A stretch of DNA of 30,743 bases from the IMG/VR virus record IMGVR_UViG_3300047352_000036, positions 1-30,743 of that record. One strand, written 5' to 3'. This DNA is from a virus. The notes below the pieces were generated by a model. That model did no database searches. It was not told where the DNA came from and saw nothing but the letters and a program-made list of their open reading frames with translations. Made by a program: the position numbers and the translations under genes. Shown piece after piece: positions 1 through 3,976 of this stretch. How positions within the stretch are numbered: the stretch's first letter is position 1; every line of letters starts with the position of its first letter.

Positions 1-191
1 ACATGGTCGGGGTAGGGGGGGGGTAGCAGATGGAAGGTTCGGGGGCGGTCGACTATCACGGTTCCATGGGGGACTAGCCAGTCTCTACAACGAGATTTTG
101 ACGCCCCCCATAGGGCAGGGGGGGAGCAACTTTAGAGGGGGGGGGCGGTCTTTCTGAGAGTACCCACCCGAAAAACATAGGGACATTGCAA
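1..191. other. Non-coding G-tract-rich leader
   Basis: No convincing gene lies here. The stretch has G runs of nine bases at 15-23, seven at 118-124 and nine at 137-145, and one C run at 104-109. The 10-mer gggggcggtc occurs twice, at 41-50 and 141-150, exactly 100 bases apart. The segment 102-109 (cgcccccc) can pair with 140-147 or, with one base less, with 41-47, so two alternative hairpins are possible. It lies upstream of the packaging genes. A pac/cos-type or G-quadruplex role is conceivable but unsupported, and long G runs are also where sequencing and assembly errors collect. Confidence 0.5.
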
Positions 192-574: not shown

Positions 575-751
575 CCTTTCAGATGCCAATTCACTATACA
601 AAACGCCAATCAGTGGTTAGGTTGGATTCATATTGCCCCCTAGAAGGCTCCAGAGACGACGATAAGGCCCTCCCCTTGGGCTTCCCTCTCCCCGAAACAT
701 CGTTTGTCCTGCGCCTTTCTAGGGGGCTTCTATAGAAACTAGGGGAAAACC
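575..751. other. Intergenic region with structured element
   Basis: This 177-base gap separates the first two small genes from the lipoprotein gene. No coding frame is credible. It holds the nested stem-loop at 635-727, described separately, and ends with the ribosome binding site agggg (741-745) of the lipoprotein gene. A TATACA sequence at 595-600 resembles a -10 box, but no acceptable -35 box lies 16-18 bases upstream, so I do not call a promoter. Confidence 0.6.
635..727 (+). promoter_or_regulatory. Long nested stem-loop (candidate structured RNA)
   Basis: Read by eye, 635-648 (gccccctagaaggc) pairs with 713-727 over 14 base pairs with one bulged T at 716. Inside it, 651-653 (cag) pairs with 709-711 (ctg). 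Then 655-663 (gacgacgat) pairs with 699-708 over nine pairs including one G-U and one bulge. A small hairpin, 664-670 with 678-683, caps part of the loop. The result is an almost continuous stem of about 26 pairs plus the apical hairpin. No T run follows, so it is not a standard intrinsic terminator. Long interrupted hairpins like this recall RNase III processing sites of T7-like phages; a leader element or small RNA is also possible. Function is inference. Confidence 0.55.
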
Positions 752-1555
752 ATGAAAAAACTAGGGTTATTTTTAGCGGTATTGGCGGTAACTGGGTGCG
801 CTTCCACGAATACGGAGTATTACGCGGCGGTGCAGAAGACGGCTGAAGCAAATGCCATGGCGAACAAGGCCAAGTTTGATGCCTTGTCAGCTATCGCGTC
901 ATCCGGAGATGGGCAGGCGGCAAGCGCGGCGGTGATGGCTTTGGCCCTGACTCAAACCCAGAATGTCGCGCCAATGCCCCAGCAGTCTCAGGCATTGCAG
1001 TGGGCATCCATTCTCGCCACTCCGGTGACCAGCTTGGGCATGATGTGGATGCAGGCTGACTCCGCGAAAACCATGGCTCGGTACAACTCACAGGTTGATC
1101 TGGCTCGCATCGATGCTGACGCCACGACTCAGCAGGCGCTCTACGGGTCATTCGTTGATTCTGCGGCGGCTGGTTATGAGGCGATGGGCAACATTGACTA
1201 CACCCCGTTCGTAGATGGCATGGTCAGTCTCGGCACTACAGGCATGGATAACCTCACGACCCTCGGCACCGCTGGGTTCGATGCTAATACGACAATTGCC
1301 ACTAACGGCATGAATAACCTTTACGGCCTTGGCACTAACGGCTTTACAAACCTTGTCACGCTTGGCAACAACGGCATCGACTCCGTTGAGAACATGGGCA
1401 TCCAAGGTCTGATTGGAATTCGAGCCAACACCGCTGATTGGCTCACCTACTCAACAGCTAGAGATGGCATTTGGAAAGACATCTTAGCCACAGAGCAAAG
1501 CGGCTGTGTAGTGACAACCAACGCCAGCGACCAAATCATTGTGACCTGCAACTAA
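752..1555 (+). CDS. Lipoprotein with six hendecapeptide repeats
   Basis: A 267-residue predicted lipoprotein. It begins MKKLGLFLAVLAVTGCAS, a charged start, hydrophobic core and lipobox VTGC with the acylated cysteine at 16. Residues 30-140 are Ala/Gln-rich and probably helical. Residues 158-223 are six consecutive 11-residue units, such as VSLGTTGMDNL, TTLGTAGFDAN and YGLGTNGFTNL, with a conserved Gly at unit position 7 and hydrophobic residues at positions 3, 8 and 11. The C-terminus carries two cysteines (SGCVV and VTC) that could form a disulfide. The ribosome binding site is agggg at 741-745. Phage lipoproteins can block superinfection or act in lysis, but I recognise no family. It could be a virion or host-envelope protein. 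A structured element lies immediately upstream. Confidence 0.85.
   Translation: MKKLGLFLAVLAVTGCASTNTEYYAAVQKTAEANAMANKAKFDALSAIASSGDGQAASAAVMALALTQTQNVAPMPQQSQALQWASILATPVTSLGMMWMQADSAKTMARYNSQVDLARIDADATTQQALYGSFVDSAAAGYEAMGNIDYTPFVDGMVSLGTTGMDNLTTLGTAGFDANTTIATNGMNNLYGLGTNGFTNLVTLGNNGIDSVENMGIQGLIGIRANTADWLTYSTARDGIWKDILATEQSGCVVTTNASDQIIVTCN
1223..1420 (+). repeat. Six 33-bp in-frame coding repeats
   Basis: These bases encode residues 158-223 of the lipoprotein as six units of 11 residues. The DNA keeps recurring words such as ctcggca/cttggca and actaacggc, but the units have diverged. Selection therefore appears to hold the protein pattern, with old duplication as the likely origin. The regular period suggests a repetitive fold such as a beta-solenoid or an amphipathic helix; which one cannot be told by eye. 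Confidence 0.75.
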
Positions 1556-1564
1556 GGGCTGTAC

Positions 1565-1978
1565 ATGATTACGCTGAAGCGTTTTGCGTACCACCCCGAG
1601 GGTACGTTGGGACTCATGCAAGTTCCGAATCACAAACTGAGCTTGTTCTATACGGTGGAGCGCCCATGGTTGGGTAACGCTCCATTCTTATCCTGCATCC
1701 CTGAAGGGGAGTATTCCATGGTCTGGAAGCGCTCCCCCAAGTTTGACTGGTGTTACGAGATAGAAAACGTAAAGGGCCGGTCACACATTCTCTTCCATGT
1801 CGCGAACTTCCCTGAAGAAATCGAAGGATGCATAGGGGTAGGCATGTCGCTAATGGGAGATCGAATCGCCGTAGCAGAATCCCGAAAAGGGATCGAGGCG
1901 TTCCATGAAGCCACTGGGGGGAACCAATGGCGGCTAAAAATCGTCAATGCGCCACTTGCGGCGTTACAAAGCCTCTAG
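1565..1978 (+). CDS. DUF5675-like protein
   Basis: A 137-residue protein with no signal peptide or membrane segment. The N-terminus (ITLKRFAYHPEGTLGLM), the motif FYTVERPWLGN near residues 28-38, CIPEGEY at 44-50, and the stretch ILFHVANFPEEIEGCIGVG at about 75-93 match my memory of the DUF5675 family of phage proteins. The His followed by a Gly-Cys-Ile motif recalls L,D-transpeptidase-type sites, so a cell-wall-related job is possible, but that is inference and no enzyme activity is established. The start follows an aaggg tract ten bases after the lipoprotein stop. The last 52 bases are also the start of the HNH gene in another frame, an unusually long overlap. No other endolysin candidate appears in the window. 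Confidence 0.75.
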   Translation: MITLKRFAYHPEGTLGLMQVPNHKLSLFYTVERPWLGNAPFLSCIPEGEYSMVWKRSPKFDWCYEIENVKGRSHILFHVANFPEEIEGCIGVGMSLMGDRIAVAESRKGIEAFHEATGGNQWRLKIVNAPLAALQSL

Positions 1979-2394
1979 ATGAATTTCCGCTTCACGGAAG
2001 AGGGGATTACAGAAAGCGTGTTTGCAGTCCCTGTCACAGAGCGAAGCAGGAGACTTACAAGTCTGCGAGTCCAGAGGCTTATCTATTTAGTCGGCTAAAC
2101 AACAAGGCCCGCAAGGTATCGGTAAGCATCACCAAGGAAGACATTCGGGTGATGTGGGATTCGCAACAGGGAAAGTGCGCCGTTACGGGGATGCACATGA
2201 CTTACTACCCCCGCCGGATGAGGGATTCCACGGGGCTAAACGCATCGATAGACAGGCTCGACCAGAGCAAAGGCTACGAAAAGGGCAACGTCAGGCTGGT
2301 CTGCTACAGGGTAAATCTTATGCGTCACTCGGGGGAGGACGCTGACTTGCTGTGGTGGTGCAAGCAAATCATTGAGGGGATAGAGGGTGAATGA
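1927..2394 (+). CDS. HNH-type zinc-binding endonuclease
   Basis: A 155-residue protein. The N-terminus has two CxxC pairs, CATC (residues 8-11) and CSPC (33-36), typical of a small zinc ribbon. The C-terminal half reads GKCAVTGMHM and then ASIDRLDQSKGYEKGNVRLV with a final CYRVNLMRH, the HNH-like pattern seen in phage endonucleases. Start 1927 is preferred because the first cysteine pair comes right after it and gggggg precedes it. Its position just upstream of the terminase matches phages where an HNH nuclease stimulates terminase cutting, as known for HK97 gp74; a homing endonuclease is the alternative. Its start overlaps the previous gene by 52 bases and its stop overlaps the terminase start by eight. 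Confidence 0.85.
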   Translation: MAAKNRQCATCGVTKPLDEFPLHGRGDYRKRVCSPCHRAKQETYKSASPEAYLFSRLNNKARKVSVSITKEDIRVMWDSQQGKCAVTGMHMTYYPRRMRDSTGLNASIDRLDQSKGYEKGNVRLVCYRVNLMRHSGEDADLLWWCKQIIEGIEGE

Positions 2395-3976
2395 CGATCA
2401 GTTAATGGAGGCCGCGAAAGTCTTCAAGAAAGATTTTCCGGTCTACGCCAAGAACGTCTTGAAGGTCGTGAACAAGGAGGGCGAGCAGGTTCCGTTCCGC
2501 CTCAACGACGGTCAGAAGATGGTTCACCAGCAACTGGAACAGCAACTCAAGGAGCAGGGAAAGATACGCGCTCTGATCCTGAAAGCACGACAGGTAGGGA
2601 TCTCAACGTATGTGGAAGGTCGATTCTTCTGGAAAATTACACAGACACGCAACGCCAATGCGTTCGTTCTTTCGCACCTTGCGGAGTCTACTAACGCGAT
2701 TTTTAACATGGTGCGTTCGTTCTACGACGGCGTTCCTCACGAAGCTTTCAAGCCGAAGCTCAGTAGTCAGAGTGCCGCCACCCTTGTCTTCGACGAGATC
2801 AACTCGCGCTACCGAGTGGGTACGGCACGATCAACTCAGACAGGGCGAGGACAGACTAACCGCTTTGTCCATGGCTCGGAGGTCGCCTTCTACCCGCAGG
2901 GCGCGGACATCGTAGCCGGTTTGCTCCAGACGGTAGGCGGTAACGGTAGCGAGGTGATCCTCGAATCTACTGCGAACGGTGCTGGTGGCTGGTTCTATGA
3001 CCAAGTCATGAAGTCCCTGCGCGGGGAAACCGACTGGATTACCTGCTTTGTTCCTTGGTTTGCCATGTCTGAGTACCGCGCCAAGGTGCGTCCGTACTTC
3101 GAGCGCACCAAGGATGAGGAGCAACTGGCGGCTAAATACGGGTTAGATGATGAGCAACTCCAGTTCCGCCGCAACAAAATGGACGAGCTAGGCGGTCATG
3201 ACCTGTTTAAGCAGGAGTATCCGACCACTGCGGTAGAGGCTTTCCTCACTTCGGGCCGCTGTTTCGTAGAGGACGATGTCCTCGCAGACGCCGAAAGGGA
3301 GTGTTACTCCGCCGATTTCATTGGGGAGTTCCGCAGTGATGGCATGTCAGAGCGCAGTTCTGGCCCATATCGGGAGTGGTATGCGCCCAACCCAGACGAT
3401 TCCTACGTCATTGGGGTGGATGTGGCAGAGGGCTTGGCCTACGGGGACTACTCTGTAGCGCAAGTGCTCGACTCACGCGGCAGGCAAGTTGCTTGCTATC
3501 ACGGGCACATCGACCCGTGGGAGTGGGGCAACACCGTGGCCATGATCGCGAAGCGGTACAACACGGCCTATGTCATTGTCGAAAGAAACAACCACGGGCT
3601 GACAACGCTCCGCCGCCTACAAGAATTGAACTACCCGTCGCTGTTTGTTGAAAGCTCAGTTGACGGTGCTTATGGAGACCGCATGACGAAGCGCGGCGGT
3701 TTCCTGACAACGAGTAAGACCAAGCCATTAATCATCGACAACCTTGCCGCACTACTTCGGCAACGTGATTCAGGCATTGCTGACCTTGAGTTAATCAAGG
3801 AACTTCGCACCTATGTCATTGATGAAAAAGGGGCTACCAATGCGCAAAACGGCTGTTATGATGATCGTGTGATGGCGTTTGCCATTGCCCTCCATGGATT
3901 GGCTTCTATGCCGCGACCCAAGAGTTTTCCGGTCGCAAGGCGCTTCAAAACTGTTGATACCGTGGCGGGCTGGTAA
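2387..3976 (+). CDS. terL: Terminase large subunit
   Basis: A 529-residue DNA packaging motor. The ATPase domain has the Walker A-type motif KARQVGIST at residues 66-74 and the Walker B/catalytic acid in VILEST (E193). The RNase H-like nuclease domain shows the expected acids: VIGVDVAEG (D345), VIVERNN (E399) and YDDRVMA (D492/D493). Length is usual for the family. The start is GTG at 2387, placed seven bases after gagggg; the nearby ATG at 2391 is out of frame. ATG 2405 is an in-frame alternative. The protein cuts concatemeric DNA and pumps it into the prohead through the portal, which is the next gene (TAATG overlap). No small subunit is recognised nearby. Confidence 0.97.
   Translation: MNDDQLMEAAKVFKKDFPVYAKNVLKVVNKEGEQVPFRLNDGQKMVHQQLEQQLKEQGKIRALILKARQVGISTYVEGRFFWKITQTRNANAFVLSHLAESTNAIFNMVRSFYDGVPHEAFKPKLSSQSAATLVFDEINSRYRVGTARSTQTGRGQTNRFVHGSEVAFYPQGADIVAGLLQTVGGNGSEVILESTANGAGGWFYDQVMKSLRGETDWITCFVPWFAMSEYRAKVRPYFERTKDEEQLAAKYGLDDEQLQFRRNKMDELGGHDLFKQEYPTTAVEAFLTSGRCFVEDDVLADAERECYSADFIGEFRSDGMSERSSGPYREWYAPNPDDSYVIGVDVAEGLAYGDYSVAQVLDSRGRQVACYHGHIDPWEWGNTVAMIAKRYNTAYVIVERNNHGLTTLRRLQELNYPSLFVESSVDGAYGDRMTKRGGFLTTSKTKPLIIDNLAALLRQRDSGIADLELIKELRTYVIDEKGATNAQNGCYDDRVMAFAIALHGLASMPRPKSFPVARRFKTVDTVAGW

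Follow-up and report, generated by a model that had tools for sequence, protein, structure and literature searches.

The 30,743-base IMG/VR record analysed here in full (hereafter the window) comes from a tailed phage that encodes a terminase large subunit (TerL), a portal, a capsid and internal virion proteins. By protein similarity, its closest isolate matches are distant: the capsid reaches 44% with phages of Rhizobium and 38% with those of Pelagibacter, and the best isolate match of TerL is Roseobacter phage CRP-7 with 35.6% identity. A long hairpin sits between a small gene ending at position 574 and the lipoprotein gene starting at 752 (Table 1). In relatives with longer flanks, minus-strand genes are followed by a divergent gap, a small plus-strand gene and TerS; next come a conserved G-rich block, the gene for a basic protein, in some relatives one for a small membrane protein, and the hairpin. 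The lipoprotein, DUF5675, an endonuclease VII-like gene and TerL come after it, and in every inspected case the hairpin lies upstream of the large-terminase gene. In addition, the window carries a small lysine-rich protein at 189–446, which adjoins the terminase genes, weakly matches phrog_4689 and is related to proteins from at least 590 viral stretches.

Table 1. Coordinates of the hairpin, its parts and the neighbouring features in the window
Feature	Position	Strand	Basis or remark
TATACAAA, possible −10-like motif	595–602	+	5' edge of conserved block
Small leader hairpin CCAATC/GGTTGG	606–625	+	Mechanical scan
Conserved single-stranded leader, TTAG(A/G)TTGGATTCATATT type	616–634	+	Nearly invariant in 12 versions
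Structured RNA hairpin	635–727	+	Fold z = −5.2, covariance-model score, covariation
Lower stem, 5' strand	635–648	+	Pairs with 713–715/717–727 (MFE)
Middle stem	651–653 with 709–711	+	MFE structure
Upper stem	655–663	+	Pairs with 699–702/704–708; ACGAT at 659–663 near-invariant
Apical hairpin	665–683	+	C-rich loop; CTCCCCTT / TTCCCCTT type in relatives
3' tail of apical region, C-rich TTCCCTCTCCCCGAA	684–698	+	Unpaired in MFE
AGGGG ribosome-binding site of next gene	741–745	+	GGGG association counts
Lipoprotein gene	752–1555	+	Lipobox VTGC, no family match
DUF5675 gene	1565–1978	+	Pfam PF18925, 3.1e-28
Terminase large subunit gene	2387–3976	+	PHROG 2, 4.3e-32

A sequence-only reading of this DNA had drawn three nested stems at 635–727, and the predicted MFE structure matched them to the base, adding an apical hairpin (665–670/678–683). 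The MFE of 633–729 was −46.4 kcal/mol on the plus strand, with z = −5.2 and none of 200 shuffles as good, so the comparison with shuffled controls proposed in that reading came out in its favour. A wider fold (620–740) gave z = −3.4 on the plus strand versus −2.1 on the minus strand, and the hairpins of seven homologues folded with z from −4.9 to −8.5. The hairpin is not an intrinsic terminator because no T run follows the stem, as had been noted before; the sequence 3' of position 727 is CTTCTATAGAAACTAGG. A coding role of 635–727 was also rejected on account of single-base loop indels between homologues (alignment A2), and the mechanically called 54-aa ORF at 571–735 is not conserved.

Pattern and covariance-model searches located the hairpin in 29 IMG/VR contigs besides the window, in one copy per phage and with covariance-model scores of 69.8 to 112.2 bits. 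A loop-derived pattern returned 17 viral contigs and a looser pattern one more (L267), while the covariance model, built from 12 versions, was run over the collected loci; among the 29 contigs, those of L011 and L015 were recognised by sequence. Seventy loci with lipoprotein homologues and no sequence-detected hairpin gave no covariance-model match either, and among 80 loci that contain the adjacent gene for the basic protein the model matched solely the contig already known, indicating that the hairpin is limited to one phage group. An unfiltered search for diverged copies in L174/L116 gave none above noise, and no similar sequence was found in isolate phages and plasmids. The pattern scan of bacterial genomes for a host yielded, among the matches listed, one weak 25-bit match in 80 loci, which was taken as chance.

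When 16 distinct versions were aligned to the model, 95.9% of the pair positions paired and 11 of the 26 pairs had changed on both sides, figures to be read with the caveat that a model-fitted alignment leans towards its model; a MAFFT alignment predating the model likewise contained compensatory change in 11 pairs. None of 500 shuffles reached any of the five measures, and sliding of the pair partners abolished the signal. The search for covarying pairs in related phages, suggested at the outset, was strongly positive. Changes on both sides occurred in 8 of the 15 consensus pairs of the lower stem, and the apical stem covaried among homologues as GCCC/GGGC, GACC/GGTC and GCCT/AGGC; four of the six upper-stem pairs lacked any variation. 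Conservation is highest in ACGAT/ATCGT, in the apical stem-loop and in the C-rich tail. The tail (684–698) is C/U-rich in all homologues, as are the unpaired apical segments in every member. Among non-Watson–Crick cells of the plus strand, 49 were G–U and 3 were A–C, and the window hairpin scored 81.7 bits on the plus strand versus 19.7 on the minus strand; by strand, plus scores were about four times the minus scores (about 112 versus 27 bits). The excess of G–U over A–C together with this asymmetry argues for selection on the plus-strand transcript. The hairpin at 635–727 is a genuine RNA structure that evolution has conserved, and the earlier suspicion of a structured RNA is strongly supported by its conserved position, its compensatory changes and the G–U bias of the plus strand. 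Judged by these substitution patterns, it acts as plus-strand RNA and not as DNA.

The association with a lipoprotein gene made in the sequence-only reading holds for the window, where the hairpin precedes that gene, but is not essential: L171/L117, L118, L173 and L267 have no lipoprotein gene and carry the hairpin directly before DUF5675. Most of the 102 viral relatives of the lipoprotein are without the hairpin. Since its place is kept before either gene, the hairpin is not tied to the lipoprotein, and such a tie was rejected on these cases and on the 70 lipoprotein loci without a covariance-model match. The distance from the model end to the ATG was 20–27 nt in 15 members, and thus a conserved plus-strand structure stands at a fixed distance from a start codon, as in a cis-acting structured leader. 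The hairpin is a single-copy structured RNA of the plus strand with a fixed place before the adjoining gene, whichever gene that is. As no terminator follows it, it would belong to the same transcript as this gene if transcribed through.

The ribosome-binding site of the adjoining gene follows the same rule. A GGGG site preceded 13 of 13 distinct lipoprotein genes behind the hairpin versus 4 of 30 homologues without it, and 3 of 4 DUF5675 genes behind the hairpin versus 1 of 24 without it, counts that were drawn from related sequences and hence are not independent; the site therefore goes with the hairpin and not with the gene. In 14 of 15 members, the C-rich interior contained a stretch of 5–7 nt exactly complementary to the leader; in L089 it is only 4 nt, and L169 lost CCCC from the loop and has it in the tail. 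A specific energy signal between loop and ribosome-binding site was tried and was weak: the pairing of the hairpin with its own site ranked 12th among 37 window genes, which is nothing special, and single-sequence shuffles gave p from 0.03 to 0.8. The GGGG and CCCC runs vary too little between sequences to be able to show covariation. Direct pairing of the C-rich loop with the GGGG site may occur and is, on these sequence comparisons, weakly supported. The window's best complement to the C-rich segments of the hairpin lies in the TerL start region (2365–2387, GAGGGGATAGAGGGTG, −18.1 kcal/mol), probably by chance, since the coding sequence there is G-rich.

Upstream of the stem, TATACAAA was retained 40 nt before it in most homologues and occurs once in the window against 0.58 expected. 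It was absent from L267, L171, L118, L167 and L169, and no −35 motif was recognised with it; a promoter role as a −10-like motif is conceivable. A search for a T7-type RNA polymerase returned no match, and its controls returned none either. The small leader hairpin was seen as CCAATC/GATTGG in L010, L029, L083 and L267, and not in L061 or L065, and the single-stranded leader at 616–634 has diverged in L109, L173, L171, L167 and L169.

Our preferred, though tentative, interpretation is a conserved cis-acting leader RNA of the late transcript in uncultivated tailed phages, which would control the translation initiation of the adjoining gene. As one option, the C-rich apical loop and tail would pair with the G-rich (GGGG) ribosome-binding site; alternatively, a protein or RNA gating the GGGG site would bind to the C-rich segments. 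Besides this, the long stem would shield the 5' end of the mRNA downstream of it, or fix where that end lies. Long intercistronic RNase III processing hairpins are found in the late/early mRNA of T7-type phages, and the hairpin described here shares their intercistronic position and their long, near-continuous double strand. A function in mRNA processing or stability, in which the stem is cut by a nuclease (RNase III or another) or blocks decay and the lysis/packaging part of the transcript is matured separately, is an unlikely explanation that keeps some weight. For a processing stem the sequence itself would matter little, yet here ACGAT/ATCGT is among the best-kept parts, together with the apical stem-loop and the C-rich tail, and, unlike in T7-type hairpins, inner helix, loop and tail are more conserved in sequence than pairing would demand. 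RNase III cleavage is possible, and on its own it would leave the near-invariant internal helix and the C-rich loops unexplained.

A protein-binding RNA with a use other than translation, for example antitermination or anti-Rho activity on a long late operon, is rather unlikely. It would suit a place near the start of an all-plus late operon after a divergent minus-strand region and independent of the next gene, and the C/U-rich unpaired segments may resemble Rho-type ligands. However, the hairpin is placed roughly 1.5 kb into the operon, away from the divergent promoter region, and such a function explains neither the short, fixed spacing to the start codon nor the association with a GGGG site. 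As an extension of the leader interpretation, the hairpin might found a new leader-RNA class whose C-rich loops touch either the GGGG site or G-tracts in the neighbouring conserved block and so act as a switch, setting the timing of the lysis/packaging genes relative to the other late genes; we regard this as quite unlikely.

A separate trans-acting small RNA, such as a motor RNA like the pRNA of phi29 or an sRNA that targets G-rich sites by pairing, is improbable. The position between the terminase genes, the promoter-like TATACAAA upstream in most members and the pairing of the C-rich loop with several ribosome-binding sites of the window, best with that of TerL, would fit it, whereas the lack of a terminator after the hairpin and the constant distance to the ATG speak against it, as do the TerS/TerL type of the phage and the lack of an Rfam match. 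The comparison with phi29 pRNA raised in the sequence-only reading thus found no support: both are structured RNAs encoded near packaging genes, and the hairpin differs in the TerS/TerL motor of its phage (a TerS-like gene in L030, TerL in the window), where a phi29-type packaging ATPase without TerS would be expected, in its lack of an Rfam match, in its presumed place within the transcript of the adjoining gene and in its cis-like fixed 20–27 nt to the start codon. Finally, a DNA-level element (a packaging or cos/pac site, a cruciform or a recombination site), to which the adjacency of TerS and of the second conserved non-coding block would be congenial, is highly improbable and was rejected, being largely refuted by the 49 to 3 strand bias of the wobble cells and the strong covariance-model asymmetry.

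Rfam 15 returned no family above the gathering threshold in the window and none in L030, the best sub-threshold match being P1 sRNA with 13.7 bits versus the 100 needed, and no description of the hairpin was found in the open-access literature. The translational operators of T4 genes 32 and 43 are phage mRNA leader structures (PMC3014915). They are alike in being structured phage mRNA leaders near a start codon with conserved loop bases, and they differ in serving the autoregulation of replication proteins and in being much shorter than the hairpin, whose next gene varies (lipoprotein or DUF5675). The rpsO/S15 operator is a ribosomal-protein leader pseudoknot that hides the ribosome-binding site (PMC3014915). 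The hairpin would be comparable with such pseudoknots if its C-rich segments pair with the GGGG site, which is weakly supported, and there is no homology between them. Considering that Rfam, isolate and literature searches gave no match and that the T4 gene 32 and 43 leaders are known, the hairpin is ranked as a new RNA family of an already known general kind, the structured phage mRNA leader.

To our knowledge, leader RNAs with covariation support are rarely reported in phage late operons. The hairpin adds a well-supported structured RNA family outside Rfam, in uncultivated phages only distantly related to isolates, and it is a short, defined and testable element with its own covariance model and conserved contacts.

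The second conserved non-coding block, at 12–93 and 134–170 of the window, lies directly after TerS and has homologues in L155–L175. It contains G7–G9 tracts, ATGGAA...TTCCAT arms and GGGGGGGCGGTCTTTCTGAGAGTACCC, and is also present in the more distant phages L174 and L175, both without the hairpin. Because its sequence is conserved with almost no covariation (1 of 12 pairs), this block may function as DNA, for example as a packaging signal. Near the first G-tract lie window positions 1–30 and the contig ends in L008, L016, L088 and L172; as these ends do not exactly coincide, they more likely reflect assembly breaks at poly-G than a physical end of the genome. In L159, L162, L164 and L170, the two parts of the G-rich block are separated by an insertion, either a further small ORF resembling a lipoprotein gene or a TTAGGAAAAAAAATTCCTAA palindrome.
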